From an uncultured Eubacteriales bacterium (lineage in GTDB: Bacteria; Bacillota; Clostridia; Oscillospirales; Oscillospiraceae), in the NCBI GenBank assembly GCA_949296115.1, contig CASFNR010000009.1:30949-94948 (forward strand): a stretch of 64,000 bases of DNA, in the 5' to 3' direction. The notes beneath the pieces were generated by a model. It searched no databases. It was not told the origin of the DNA and worked only from the letters and a program-made list of their open reading frames with translations. Within the stretch, counting starts at the first letter, position 1. Every line of letters starts with the position of its first letter. Below are positions 49,941-55,610 of this stretch, in pieces. The position numbers and the translations under genes were made by a program.

Positions 49941-52532
49941 TTATTTCAAGATCAGTTCGCCGTTTTCCGCATCCACGGTGACGGTCTGGCCGGGGGCAAT
50001 GTCGCCCCGGAGCAGCCGTTTGCTCAGCATGGTTTCCACGGTGTGCTGGACATACCGGCGCAGAGGACGGGCGCCGTACTGCGGGTCGTAGGCCGCATCC
50101 ACAATGGCGGACTTGGCGGCGGGGGTCAGCTCGCAGCGAATCTGCTGATTTTCCAGGCGGCTGTTCAGCTTGTCGATCTGCAGATCGATGATCTTGGTCA
50201 CATTCTCCTTGGTCAGGGGCTTGTAGAACACAATCTCGTCCAGCCGGTTCAGGAACTCGGGGCGGAAGGACCGGCGCAGCAGGGCTTCCACCTGGGCCTT
50301 GGCCTGGGGGTCGATGGTGCCGTCGTCATGGACGCCGCTGAGCAGGAACTCGGAACCCAGGTTGGAGGTCAGAATCAGGATGGTGTTCTTGAAGTCCACC
50401 GTCCGGCCCTGGGAGTCGGTGATCCGGCCGTCATCCAGCACCTGCAGCAGCACGTTGAATACATCCGGGTGGGCCTTTTCCACTTCGTCAAACAGCACCA
50501 CACTGTAGGGCTTGCGCCGCACGGCCTCGGTCAGCTGACCGCCCTCCTCATAGCCCACATATCCGGGAGGCGCACCAATCAAACGGGACACGGAGAATTT
50601 CTCCATGTATTCGGACATATCAATCCGCACCAGGTTGTTCTCGTCATCAAACAGGGCCTGGGCCAGAGTTTTCGCCAGCTCGGTTTTGCCCACGCCGGTG
50701 GGTCCCAGGAACAGGAACGACCCGATGGGGCGGTTGGGGTCCTGGATGCCGGCCCGGCTGCGCTGGATGGCCTCGGTGACGGCCTGAACTGCCTCGTCCT
50801 GACCCACCACCCGCTTGTGCAGGGTTTCGTCCAGGTGCAGCAGCTTCTCACGCTCTCCCTGAACCAGCCGGGACACGGGAATGCCGGTCCACCGCTCCAC
50901 AATCCGGGCAATCTCTTCTTCCGTGACCCGGTCCCGGAGAATGTTGCTCTCCTTGGCGGCCTGGGCCCGGCGCTCCTCTTCCTCCAGCTGACGCTTGGCT
51001 TCGGGGAGACGGCCATATTTCAGCTCGGCGGCCTTTTCCAGGTCGTAGCGCTGCTCCGCTGCTTCGATCTGCCGGTTCAGGTCCTCAATGGTCTCCCGCA
51101 GCTGCTGGACCTTGCCGATGGCATTCTTTTCATTTTCCCACTGGGCCTTCATTGCATTGAACTTGTCCCGTTCCTCTGCCAGCTCTTTCTGCAGCTCGGC
51201 AAGACGGCCCTTGGACAGTTCGTCCTCTTCCTTCTTCAGTGCGGCTTCCTCGATCTCCATCTGGATGATCTTCCGGGACACGGCGTCCAGCTCGGTAGGC
51301 ATGGAGTCCATCTCGGTGCGGATCTGGGCGCAGGCCTCATCCACCAGGTCAATGGCCTTGTCCGGCAGGAACCGGTCGGTGATATACCGATGGGACAGGG
51401 TGGCGGCGGCGATGATGGCGGAGTCGGCAATCTTCACCCCGTGGAACACCTCGTAGCGCTCCTTCAGGCCCCGGAGGATGGCAATGGTGTCCTCCACCGT
51501 GGGTTCGTCTACCATGACAGGCTGGAACCGACGCTCCAGGGCGGCGTCCTTCTCAATATACTGGCGGTACTCATCCAGGGTGGTGGCGCCGATGCAGTGC
51601 AGCTCCCCCCGGGCCAGCATGGGCTTGAGCAGATTGCCCGCATCCATGCTGCCCTCGGTTTTGCCCGCACCCACAATGGTGTGCAGCTCATCGATGAACA
51701 GAATGATCTGCCCCTCGGACTGCTTGACTTCGTTCAGAACGGCCTTCAGACGCTCCTCAAATTCGCCCCGGTATTTGGCACCGGCAATCAAGGCGCCCAT
51801 ATCCAGGGAGAAGATGGTCTTGTCCTGGAGGGACTTGGGCACATCTTTCTTCACAATCCGCTGGGCCAGTCCTTCGGCAATGGCGGTTTTGCCCACGCCG
51901 GGCTCGCCGATGAGCACCGGGTTATTCTTGGTTTTCCGGGACAGAATCCGAACCACATTCCGGATTTCCTCGTCCCGACCGATTACCGGGTCCATCTTCT
52001 GCTCCCGGGCACGCTTCACCAGGTCGGTGCCGTATTTCTCCAGGGCGTCGTAGGTGCCCTCCGGGCTGTCGGAGGTGACCCGCTGGTTGCCCCGAACGGC
52101 CTGCAGGGCCTTCAGGGCATTCTCCTTGGTAATCCGGTAGGTTTCAAACAGGGACTTTACGTCTCCCCGGGCGGTTTCCAGCAGCGCCAGGAACAGGTGC
52201 TCTACGGAGACGAATTCGTCCTTCATGGATTCTGCCTGGGCTTCTGCGGCGGTGAAAGTGGCGTCCAGATCGGCGCTGATATAGAACCGGTCCGCCTCCC
52301 GGCTGGCTTTGACGCCGGGGATTTTCCGCAGCTGGGCGGCAGCGGCAGCATCCAGACTTTCCACGGTGACTTCCATTTTCCGCAGCAGCTGGGGAATCAG
52401 CCCTCCATCCTGCCGCAGCAGGGCCAGCAGCAGGTGAACCTGCTCCAACTGCTGATGAGAATTTTGCACAGCCAAATTCTGTGCGCTCTGGACAGCTTCC
52501 AGAGATTTCTGGGTATAGCGGTTGAAATTCAT
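49941..52532 (-). CDS. clpB: ClpB disaggregase (Hsp100)
   Basis: 863 residues from ATG 52532, RBS AAGGAAGG. N-terminal Clp repeats ([20 protein letters not shown]), NBD1 with [15 protein letters not shown], a long coiled-coil middle domain (about 405-530), NBD2 with [15 protein letters not shown], and a C-terminal small domain ([13 protein letters not shown]). It threads aggregated proteins together with DnaK. The promoter carries a perfect CIRCE, so HrcA control is very likely. Confidence 0.97.
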
Positions 52533-52556
52533 AGCGATCCTTCCTTTCCTTGGCAT

Positions 52557-52807: not shown

Positions 52808-52828
52808 TTTCTTACCTCTCTTTTCTCT

Positions 52829-52873
52829 GAAAGAATCCCAATGCGGTCTGGTCAACCGTGTTGGGATTCTTTC
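52829..52873. repeat. Long-armed inverted repeat
   Basis: GAAAGAATCCCAA (52829-52841) and TTGGGATTCTTTC (52861-52873), with an inner CGGT/ACCG pair. No T-tract rightward; leftward it runs towards the 26-residue ORF. Possible terminator or protein site. Confidence 0.55.
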
Positions 52874-52877
52874 ATTG

Positions 52878-52905
52878 TTTACCTTTCCCCCAAATGTGAT
52901 ATAAT
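52878..52905 (+). promoter_or_regulatory. Promoter of the permuted lipoprotein gene
   Basis: TTTACC (52878-52883), 16 bp, TATAAT (52900-52905); leader about 40 nt. Confidence 0.65.
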
Positions 52906-52952
52906 GGCAGGACTCTGCCCCATGAAGAGAATACCCCGAAGGGAGATCAAAG

Positions 52953-54695
52953 ATGCGAACATATGGGAAATGGATTCTGGCAGTGCTGCTGGCGCTGCTG
53001 ATGACAGGCTGCGGGGAAAGACAGGAACTTCCCCAGCAGGAAACCACCACTCCGATTGAAACCATGCCGGATTCATCCGCTGCATCGGCGGAAATCCGAC
53101 AGGCTCTGGGCCTGCTGCTGGAGCGCAACTATATTGCGGAGGACCTTCTGGGGGGAGGGCGGATTCCGGCGGCATCCCTGGTGCCGACGGGCATCCTGGA
53201 TGGAGACGGAACCTGGTTCGCCCGGAATGCCGGTGGGAATGAGAGCTGGCCGGGATATTTTAACACGGACAAGATGGGATTTGAGGAAAATTATGCCCAG
53301 GCGTATGCGACCTTGTCCCGGTATTTCCAGCGGGACGCCGCCGGAAACTTTCTGGAGGTACCCACCCTGACCTGCCTGTGCCGGGAGGAAGAGCAGCAGA
53401 CTGCCCTGGGAGAGTATCTTTGCTCCGCTCTGGGGACAGTGGGTATTTCGGTGGAATTGGAAATTCTGGATGAAACGGCATACCAGGAGACGCTGACGGC
53501 AGGGGATTACTCCTTTGTCATCGAAACCAAAACCGCCGCCTGCAACAGTCCGCTGGTGTTCCTGGAGGACTGGATCACAGAAAACTGGCAGGGCTGGGAC
53601 CGGAATGGAACATACGACCTGGATCTGACCCAGTGGGGGCTGCCCGTTTCCGTTACCGCTGGAACCTGGGCGGAAACCTACGACGTGCTCATAAAGGAAA
53701 TCCGGACCTGCGCTGATTCGGAAAACCGATCCGCCATGATGCACCTGGCAGAGGATTTTCTCCTGTCTGCGGGGGTGGTGACGCCGCTGTACTTCGGGAC
53801 GGAAGTAAGCCTTCAACATCCCGATGTAACGGGCGTATCCTGGAACCCGGCGGGAGGCTGGGATTTCCGCCGCACCAGCGTGGGCGGCGGCGGAAGGCTC
53901 CTGACTGTATGCCTGTCTGCACCGGTGGATTCCCTGGACCCGGCGGCTTGTTCCGATGTGGATGGAAATACGCTGATTTCCCACCTGTTTTCCGGCCTTG
54001 CCCGGTGGAAGACAGATGACCAGGGAAAAACGGCACTGGTGCCGGACTGCGCCCAGACGCTGCCGGCGGGGGCGGTGCAGCCGGACGGCACGGTGGTCTA
54101 TACCTACCGTTTGAAAGAGGGACTGATCTGGTCCGATGGACAGGCCCTGACGGCGGGGGACTTTGCCTATGCCTGGAACCGGGCCGCTGCCATGGCCGGA
54201 GAAACCGGACAGGCGGAAATCTGGAGCCGGGTGCAGACTGTGAAAGCGCTGGATGACCGAACCCTGCGGGTGACGCTGACCGAGCCGGTCTCCTTCTGGA
54301 ATGAACTGTTGGCAGAGCCTGCTTTCTTCCCGGTGCGGGAGGATGTGGTGTCCGTTCCCGGGTGGAGCGCCAATCCTGCCGGATGGGTGTCCAACGGAGC
54401 ATATACCTTGAATCAATGGGATCATAATAACCTGGTTGTCCTCCGCCGGAACGAAAACAGTCACCACGCACAGGAGACCACCATGGAGGAAATCCGTTTC
54501 TATCTGTCAGATACTCCTGCCAGTATGCTTTCCAACTTCGAAAACGGCTTCTTCCAGGTGATTACCGATTTTCCCCGGGAGCAGACCGGGGCAATCGGGG
54601 AAGCCAATTCCCAATGTCTGCAGGTGGAAGGGGCAATGGAAAGCGGCTTCCTCCGCTGGAATGCCGGCCAGTCCCTGCTGCCCGGTGCTTCATAA
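52953..54695 (+). CDS. OppA-type peptide-binding lipoprotein with swapped halves (circular permutation)
   Basis: 580 residues; RBS AAGGGAG 7 nt before ATG. Lipoprotein signal with lipobox LMTGC (Cys20) and a Thr/Glu/Pro linker. Residues 46-309 match the C-terminal half of SBP_bac_5 proteins: IRQALGLLLERNYIAEDLLG, the PTGI loop, GISVELEILDETAYQETL, and the usual chain end AEDFLLSAGVVTPLYFGTE. After GGGG (311-314) come the usual N-terminal features: LTVCLSAPVDSLDPAACSDV, LFSGLARW, LKEGLIWSDGQALTAGDFAY, VSNGAYTLNQWDHN, ending FLRWNAGQSLLPGAS where IRQAL would normally follow. All parts of one domain seem present, reordered. No permease genes are adjacent. Confidence 0.85.
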   Translation: MRTYGKWILAVLLALLMTGCGERQELPQQETTTPIETMPDSSAASAEIRQALGLLLERNYIAEDLLGGGRIPAASLVPTGILDGDGTWFARNAGGNESWPGYFNTDKMGFEENYAQAYATLSRYFQRDAAGNFLEVPTLTCLCREEEQQTALGEYLCSALGTVGISVELEILDETAYQETLTAGDYSFVIETKTAACNSPLVFLEDWITENWQGWDRNGTYDLDLTQWGLPVSVTAGTWAETYDVLIKEIRTCADSENRSAMMHLAEDFLLSAGVVTPLYFGTEVSLQHPDVTGVSWNPAGGWDFRRTSVGGGGRLLTVCLSAPVDSLDPAACSDVDGNTLISHLFSGLARWKTDDQGKTALVPDCAQTLPAGAVQPDGTVVYTYRLKEGLIWSDGQALTAGDFAYAWNRAAAMAGETGQAEIWSRVQTVKALDDRTLRVTLTEPVSFWNELLAEPAFFPVREDVVSVPGWSANPAGWVSNGAYTLNQWDHNNLVVLRRNENSHHAQETTMEEIRFYLSDTPASMLSNFENGFFQVITDFPREQTGAIGEANSQCLQVEGAMESGFLRWNAGQSLLPGAS

Positions 54696-54704
54696 CAGAA
54701 CCAA

Positions 54705-54729
54705 TCCCGTCCCGGGCACCGGGACGGGA
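54705..54729 (+). terminator. Terminator of the permuted lipoprotein gene
   Basis: TCCCGTCCCGG/CCGGGACGGGA with a 3-nt loop, then AATCTTTT, 9 bp after the stop. Confidence 0.85.
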
Positions 54730-54764: not shown

Positions 54765-54794
54765 AGGAGAAATTTTCGGAAGGAAGTGGATGAA

Positions 54795-55610
54795 TTGGCC
54801 AATGTGGTGGAGATTACGGATTTTTCCGCACCGGAACTGGATGTCTATGCCCGGCTGACCGAGGCCCAGCTGCTGAACCGGTTTGAACCCGCCAAGGGGC
54901 TGTTCATTGCAGAGAGCCCCAAGGTGATTCACCGGGCCCTGGACGGAGGCTGCCAGCCGGTGTCCATGCTGATGGAGCGCAAAGACATCACCGGCGCCGC
55001 CCGGGAGATTCTGGAGCGCTGCCCGGACATTCCGGTGTATACCGCCGATGAGGAGCTGCTGTGCAATCTCACCGGTTACCACTTGACCCGGGGGGTGCTG
55101 TGCGCCATGCGGCGGCCCCAGAATCCGTCTCTGGAGGAAATCTGCGCCGGAGCCAGCCGGATTGTGGTGCTGGAGAACATCATGAACCCCACCAATGTGG
55201 GTGCCATCTTCCGCTCTGCCGCTGCCCTGGGCATGGACGGCATCCTGCTGACCCCGGGATGCAGCAACCCGCTTTACCGGCGAAGTGCTCGGGTGAGCAT
55301 GGGCACGGTGTTCCAGATTCCCTGGACCTTTACCCCCGCCTGGCCGGAGGAGGGAATGGCTGCCCTGTCCCGGCTGGGATTCAAGACCGCCGCCATGGCC
55401 CTGCGGGGGGACTCGGTGTCCATTGACGACCCCGGCCTGATGGCGGAGGAAAGGCTGGCGGTGGTTCTGGGCAGCGAAGGAGATGGCCTGGCGGATACCA
55501 CCATCGCCGCCTGCGACTATACGGTCAAAATCCCCATGTTCCACGGGGTGGATTCTCTGAATGTGGCGGCGGCCAGCGCCGTGGCCTTCTGGCAGCTGCG
55601 GAAAGGGTAG
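54795..55610 (+). CDS. SpoU/TrmH-family RNA 2'-O-methyltransferase
   Basis: 271 residues from TTG 54795, 10 nt after GGAAGGA; a GTG at 54786 abuts that RBS. An N-terminal substrate-binding part (PAKGLFIAESPKVIHRALDG) and a knotted SPOUT domain: VVLENIMNPTNVGAIFRSAA, ILLTPGCSNPLYRRSARVSM, VVLGSEGDGLAD and VKIPMFHGVDSLNVAAASAV. The family 2'-O-methylates rRNA or tRNA, with some members giving thiostrepton-type resistance. First of four tightly linked genes. Confidence 0.9.
   Translation: MANVVEITDFSAPELDVYARLTEAQLLNRFEPAKGLFIAESPKVIHRALDGGCQPVSMLMERKDITGAAREILERCPDIPVYTADEELLCNLTGYHLTRGVLCAMRRPQNPSLEEICAGASRIVVLENIMNPTNVGAIFRSAAALGMDGILLTPGCSNPLYRRSARVSMGTVFQIPWTFTPAWPEEGMAALSRLGFKTAAMALRGDSVSIDDPGLMAEERLAVVLGSEGDGLADTTIAACDYTVKIPMFHGVDSLNVAAASAVAFWQLRKG

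Follow-up and report, generated by a model that had tools for sequence, protein, structure and literature searches.

The gene at positions 52953-54695 of the window (the whole 64,000-nucleotide stretch of DNA analysed here; features lie on the forward strand unless stated otherwise) raises the question of whether an OppA/DppA-type peptide-binding lipoprotein exists in nature with its halves exchanged, as an earlier note on this DNA had claimed, and, if so, how often the order has changed and what the rearranged protein does. The open reading frame is intact over 580 codons with no internal stop, as the note had read it. The predicted protein matched a single Pfam family, SBP_bac_5 (PF00496, 368 HMM positions), with 139.2 bits against a cut-off of 32.4, and the match fell into two parts, residues 47-211 aligning to HMM positions 217-364 and residues 375-554 to HMM positions 12-191. 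Scanned alone, the two halves reached HMM positions 217-364 and 12-193. The normal order of SBP_bac_5 was not found; the halves map to complementary, non-overlapping regions of the profile in swapped order, and the break lies at a single point between HMM positions 193 and 217, both as the note had proposed. No duplicated or missing segment was seen in the profile alignment or in alignments to OppA and DppE structures in the PDB. The PDB alignments gave the chain order as the first block, the old C-terminal residues (about 70, 238-310), GGGG and the old N-terminus, and the same was obtained for one typical relative.

Four segments were mapped on the basis of the open reading frame, the Pfam match and alignment with relatives, in the normal order A1-A2-B1-B2. 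The window protein begins with a signal peptide and a lipobox-like motif with Cys20 (52953-53012), followed by segment B1 (residues 46-237; 53088-53663), normally the third quarter, which contains the OppA ligand stretch, here degenerate. Segment B2 (residues 238-310; 53664-53882), normally the C-terminal block, was placed by alignments and segment models, and the GGGG linker read in the sequence behind it (53883-53894) joins the old C-terminus to the old N-terminus. Segments A1 (residues 315-414; 53895-54194), normally the N-terminal quarter, and A2 (residues 415-580; 54195-54692), normally the second quarter, were placed by Pfam and segment models, and the new C-terminus at the end of A2 is the break point. 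The earlier note had also given the gene its own promoter, ribosome-binding site and terminator. A ribosome-binding-site-like AAGGGAG (52939-52945) was read 7 nt before the ATG; the promoter-like site TTTACC-16-TATAAT (52878-52905, 10/12 match) and the terminator-like stem with a weak T run (54705-54729) are consensus matches only. Promoter-like sites in the gene region numbered 5 against 1.6 expected and terminator-like sites 4 against 2.6 expected, and the terminator is not clearly above chance.

Matches at E 1e-20 or better were found in 47 of 136 genomes of the genus. As read from the match tables, 32 of the 136 carry the swapped order, nearly complete in 29 and as a partial match across the junction in 3; 11 carry the normal order and 4 others have short or distant matches only; in none of the 136 do both orders occur as close relatives. 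The ortholog search proposed in the earlier note thus turned up 31 further genomes of the genus with the swapped order. As the order recurs in these and in the named assemblies given below, a misassembly at the junction near 53880-53895, conceivable in that the source is a draft assembly of 85 contigs, is excluded. Of the outcomes that the note had listed as contrary to its reading, namely two halves matching one region of the profile, an unswapped order and a misassembly, none came true.

The premise of the note that SBP_bac_5 proteins keep one order did not stand, as one OppA/DppA-type lipoprotein occurs among the relatives in four gene orders: the normal order, CP-I (B1-B2-A1-A2, as in the window), CP-II (B2-A1-A2-B1) and CP-III, which is cut inside B1. 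The distinct set comprised 53 CP-I, 12 CP-II, 27 CP-III and 41 canonical proteins (133 rows). A sample of 400 genomes of the family contained at least two more window-type swapped genes in other genera, and the tables showed the CP-II pattern (match from about 222-255 to about 546-578) in at least 21 genomes; 12 candidates were fetched, 11 of them from those 21 genomes and one from G048, and all 12 were CP-II. CP-I was also found in assemblies deposited as Atopobiaceae or Coriobacteriaceae, and CP-III in assemblies deposited as Erysipelotrichaceae; all of these sources look like metagenome-assembled genomes. A single-sequence search of genome contigs with the window protein gave no match, a search of the same contigs with alignment A1 was kept to the best 80 of at least 505 relatives, and a search of a viral collection gave one partial relative. 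In all 92 CP-I, CP-II and CP-III proteins measured, a stretch of 2-5 residues between the segment B2 and A1 models links the old ends. The lipobox Cys read by the note is invariant in 31/31 CP-I proteins of alignment A1 (Cys20 in the window protein) and 26/26 CP-III proteins of alignment A3, with the starts of relatives picked by a lipobox pattern and L062, which is cut by a contig end, left out of A1. L090, the only CP-II protein scanned against Pfam, gave a single normal-looking SBP_bac_5 match to HMM positions 2-367 of 368, so that such permutants are easily missed in annotation.

With a profile of the junction, one match spanning the B2-A1 junction was obtained in 15 of 295 genomes of an order sample and in at least 11 of 398 genomes of a phylum sample, the window genome being included in both. 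Eighteen places were fetched and mapped, one of which was again the genome of L153. Eight of the 18 belong to a distant group, CP-IV, which has the order of CP-III and lies before opp genes; none of the four sequences read has a lipobox. Of the CP-IV genomes, G983 consists of a single contig of 3.3 Mb. In a ninth CP-IV member (L200:3806-5491), from the single-contig genome G1163, one in-frame stop interrupts the gene, possibly through sequencing error, readthrough or decay, and a CP-II-like gene in L211 (G616) is broken into two ORFs.

By a script distance rule, the binding-protein gene lies behind oppF on the same strand in 44/53 CP-I, 10/12 CP-II, 27/27 CP-III and 28/41 canonical rows; among the misses, L156_CP1 and L084_CP2 fail the distance rule only, 5 rows run off the ends of their contigs and the other 12 canonical ones are mostly distant outgroups. 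OppB, OppC, OppD and OppF of L153, whose neighbours are Opp permeases and ATPases by Pfam, served as probes. Where the contig reaches, the usual operon order is oppB-oppC-oppD-oppF followed by the binding-protein gene as the fifth gene. Compared with the Opp proteins of L153, those encoded in CP-I and CP-III operons and in canonical operons of the family mostly showed 66-91% identity, with the exceptions of L156 (60-69%) and L137 (34-58%), and those of CP-II operons 52-71%. As permuted and normal forms mostly lie behind oppF and the other opp genes are similar, the receptor gene changed while the operon stayed. As most permuted genes stand directly behind oppF, their products most likely act as receptors for complete peptide importers, a predicted role in which the protein would fold into the usual two-lobed cleft and feed peptides to OppBC. 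The absence of a nearby permease, pointed out in the earlier note, holds for the window and fails for most relatives, which adjoin oppBCDF. The role of a sensor, also suggested there, is unsupported since most relatives are in opp operons, and could still apply to the orphan copy in the window.

Some loci carry further binding-protein genes. In L129, L130, L131 and L170, which come from assemblies of Atopobiaceae/Coriobacteriaceae, a normal-order binding-protein gene comes after the CP-I gene; a second, distant oppBCDF set lies further on in L129, L130 and L170, and at least oppB precedes the end of the locus in L131. Two CP-I genes per genome, one of them in an opp operon, were found in G087 (L047, L061) and G118 (L049, L058). 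No oppF was found upstream of the second gene within the stretch fetched, and escape from the operon may therefore have happened more than once.

L153 and L076 are a sister pair of a permuted and a normal-order protein, 86.6% identical over 558 aligned residues once the permuted L153 was rotated. L153 ends in ILPATAK where L076 has ILPADSGLTGVEAENARAEIR, reads NDMAAVEAENARAEIR near its start, and has YKYFMYCTVPTGSSISVCLASEPDTLDP at the fusion against the L076 end YKYFMYCTIG. To judge from these junction sequences, the change is a clean re-joining. That two unrelated half-genes were fused, instead of one gene being permuted, is very improbable: beyond the swapped order itself no support for it was found, whole rotated chains match normal-order homologs as in this pair, and permuted and normal-order homologs occupy the same operon position. 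For the tandem duplication that the earlier note had suggested as the route, a close look at L153 found neither an intermediate nor a remnant second copy. Directly downstream of the permuted gene in L153, beyond a stem that by eye resembles a terminator, lies a B-half fragment of another binding-protein subfamily (L153:7730-8374); it was considered as a duplication remnant and rejected, being 40% identical to L184 against 33% to L153 itself.

The structure prediction proposed in the earlier note gave a confident AlphaFold2 model of the window protein (pLDDT 87.5, pTM 0.80), and a CP-III protein, L141, was modelled similarly (pLDDT 86.7, pTM 0.82). In Foldseek, OppA and DppE were the first matches to the window model and the 50 matches listed were OppA/DppA-like chains, with sequential alignments of 224-276 columns, under half of the 580-residue chain, and query TM of 0.31-0.38. 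The first 26 matches to the L141 model covered 377-394 columns (query TM 0.44-0.50, rmsd 3.7-8.9). Such short alignments are what a sequential aligner should return for a permutant. Profile mapping, relatives in both orders, operon position and the confident fold prediction together support the central claim of the note, that the window gene encodes a naturally circularly permuted peptide-binding lipoprotein, here of the OppA/DppA type.

The cuts were located at about 278-286 for CP-I and between about 320 and 360 for CP-III (1b05 chain numbering), and at about 443-447 (3o9p) or 450-456 (8are) for CP-II. Domain III of OppA comprises about residues 271-486. In an Ami-system protein, lobe 2 corresponds to domain III, residues 297-582, and the available text of that source states that this organisation occurs in OppA too (PMC11192437). 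With the anchor and termini positioned by sequence mapping, and lobe limits taken from the Ami-system protein (available text of PMC11192437) and from the OppA domain limits given above, we infer that the mapped cuts lie inside lobe 2. With cuts at such places, the lipid-anchored end would sit on lobe 2 instead of lobe 1, and the old ends, joined by their short linker, would close up lobe 1. As the lipobox is absent from the four CP-IV sequences read, relocation of the anchor cannot be the whole story. A placement of the CP-I cut at the inter-lobe hinge loop, the site of the AliC domain swap (as described in the available text of PMC11192437), was considered and dropped, as the alignments were read to place the cut beyond the next strand, within lobe 2.

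The number of order changes was assessed with trees. A first tree, with a far outgroup that gave long branches, was the only one to place the window protein, which grouped with L034 and L043 (support 99); other outgroups were used later. The short ORFs L064, L134, L140 and L151 were left out of the first tree set and of a larger quick tree, which was also built without L001, L034, L137, L156 and the far canonical proteins L129, L130, L131 and L170. A 67-row tree of rotated sequences comprised a hand-picked subset of the 133 rows, and AU groups were picked after a first tree, so that their p values are to some degree post hoc. In this tree, CP-I as a single clade was rejected (AU p=0.0012, log-likelihood 104.5 lower), because L153 groups with the normal-order L076 and L082 in both receptor and permease trees, and with L172 in the receptor tree. 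CP-I thus arose, or reverted, more than once. CP-III was a single group in the 67-row tree (94/77) and not in three other trees, including the larger quick tree. For CP-IV, joining to the CP-I/II/III family with the inner canonical rows was rejected (p=0.0017); this value was relied on as the fairer test, another with three inner canonical rows left out giving p=2e-5. CP-III and CP-IV as one clade gave p=4e-7, in a tree where CP-III is itself not one group. L002 and L190 were left out of the CP-IV trees.

Fewer permutation events, with one or two permuted ancestors and a later return to normal order in some lines, would fit several of these results. CP-I without L153 as a single clade was not rejected (AU p=0.386), the family's canonical rows as a single clade were (AU p=0.0014), and CP-II is a single group in the 67-row tree except that the canonical L188 (L188:1790-3529) nests inside it with support 100/99, possibly a return to normal order or a repeated origin of CP-II; CP-II without L188 as a single clade was borderline (AU p=0.054). 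Returns need new permutations too, however, and the number of order changes stays high, the 67-row tree requiring 9 against a minimum of 3, and CP-IV stands outside the family; we consider a history of so few events unlikely. Gains and returns of an order are not distinguishable by such change counts. In the permease tree, in which operons with identical OppF were collapsed, operons without OppC, OppD and OppF were left out and the rows L129_CAN, L130_CAN and L131_CAN are CP-I operons, CP-I needs 9 changes and some receptors stand apart from the relatives of their operons. Receptor and permease trees disagree for L058, L061 and L044, which suggests that receptor genes may have been exchanged between operons. 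Taken together, these comparisons indicate that the permutation is real, common to many species, repeated and mostly found within opp operons.

The copy in the window has departed from this arrangement. It stands between a divergent clpB (49941-52556, reverse strand) and a gene for a SpoU-family rRNA methylase (54786-55610), with no oppBCDF genes beside it. The same clpB-spoU locus holds a gene in G047 (L034) and a front-truncated gene in G058 (L064), and G048 (L043) has a counterpart with the downstream flank only. The window protein is about 51-54% identical to its syntenic counterpart L034, against 71-99% for seven neighbours. The dN/dS value for this pair was 0.385, with 0.02-0.30 for the seven neighbours and 0.17-0.31 for three operon-borne CP-I pairs; being below 1 and only somewhat above the operon-borne pairs, it shows that constraint remains on the window copy. 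As dS was also high (1.07, against 0.25-0.62 for flanking genes), allele exchange may account for some of the divergence. The window protein departs from the consensus in 23 of the 119 columns that do not vary among 29 other CP-I proteins, 10/27 in the ligand stretch against 13/92 elsewhere (Fisher p=0.013, with the region chosen after seeing the sequence). All four OppA ligand residues checked, R404, R413, W416 and D419, are replaced, by L, I, K and A; among the 29 other CP-I proteins of alignment A1 (L034 excluded), the columns of W416 and D419 show no variation and those of the two Arg residues very little. Asp419 of OppA anchors the amino group of the ligand according to the available text of PMC9967938. 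A close OppB was not found in the window genome G000 (about 90% complete; best 37%), nor in G047 (best 35%) or G058 (best 36%), which are 85-90% complete so that absence is uncertain; OppB in three operon-bearing genomes was 76-83% identical. Judging by the residues replaced, the window copy most likely no longer binds peptides in the manner of OppA. In the lineage of the window, a CP-I copy would thus have come to stand at the clpB-spoU locus without its operon and have lost its ligand-contact residues, and it may since have been re-purposed or be drifting under weakened constraint.

Drift could also mean that the gene, orphaned and unneeded, is becoming a pseudogene, as the front-truncated gene of L064 at the same locus and the altered invariant columns, concentrated in the ligand stretch by the post hoc comparison above, would suggest. 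This appears improbable, since the 580 codons have remained without a stop despite great divergence, dN/dS is 0.385, and the signal peptide and lipobox-like motif are kept. A minority possibility that deserves somewhat more weight is that the protein is still a receptor for peptides or another ligand and shares a permease encoded elsewhere, on contig C5 or C7, where other Opp-type permease genes of G000 encode OppB homologs of 37% and 34% identity, respectively. Several binding lipoproteins per permease are described for the Ami system in the available text of PMC11192437, and the ORF is intact and partly constrained; the four replaced ligand residues (R404L, R413I, W416K, D419A) and the lack of any permease found close to the one the protein evolved with speak against it. 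The reading preferred here, that the gene is a natural OppA/DppA-type permutant with the usual fold, that its relatives behind oppF serve as receptors, and that the window copy is orphaned and likely binds otherwise than OppA, is given a joint probability of roughly 85%.

Compared with OppA and DppE (SBP_bac_5, cluster C; PDB 8are, 8ay0, 1b05), the window protein shares the family profile and lipobox and, as far as predicted, probably the fold, and most relatives also share the oppBCDF operon and the ligand residues. OppA and DppE have the normal segment order, whereas the window protein is permuted and has lost the ligand residues and the operon. The nearest precedent found is TpMglB-2 (Tp0684) of Treponema pallidum, for which a 'cluster Bc' was proposed and which is likewise a natural permutation of a lipid-anchored binding protein of an ABC importer; glucose binding and a ligand-induced conformational change are reported for it despite the permutation (available text of PMC4990184). 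It differs in its cluster B sugar-binding fold, which the window protein lacks (PF00496 only; OppA/DppA-like PDB matches), in its cut site, the first three N-lobe strands having moved to the end, and in that the available text of PMC4990184 describes one order, against several in the OppA/DppA-type family. It was the only relevant case of natural permutation among binding proteins in the literature covered, most subscription papers and bioRxiv preprints lying outside that scope. For the unrelated permuted GTPases (YRG/YlqF, cpRAS), too, one fold is reported to have been permuted in nature more than once (available text of PMC2430557).

Circular permutation is usually studied by engineering. 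Related bacteria with the same transporter and a receptor in four chain orders provide a natural experiment on tolerance to re-wiring, in which one can test where a two-lobed receptor may be cut and still dock on the same permease, and whether a shift of the lipid anchor between lobes is selected. CP-II permutants such as L090, which pass as normal Pfam matches, are a warning for annotation. A wider account can be put forward only tentatively, at slightly less than even odds: Opp-type receptors would have undergone five or more permutations (two CP-I, CP-II, CP-III and CP-IV), by cuts in lobe 2, with the operon kept and the anchored end on the other lobe, and one copy in the window genus would have left the operon and be turning into a lipoprotein with a new role.

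Between clpB and the binding-protein gene, a hairpin of 20 pairs was observed at window positions 52812-52874, with a pyrimidine-rich lead and an invariant CGGTCTGGTCAACCG. A search of Rfam with the hairpin and the gene surroundings gave no convincing match (one at E 0.8, far below the gathering score). Its 19-base pattern occurred with at most 2 mismatches in 21 of 136 genomes of the genus, the reversed control giving 5 hits, and the hairpin was present at 14 of 16 places fetched, L239 and L241 looking like chance. The stem covaries: 96.8% of cells were paired and both partners had been exchanged in 6 pairs, a level that 19 of 500 shuffles attained. At 12 of the 14 places clpB lies near the hairpin. 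The hairpin possibly represents a new small RNA or leader.
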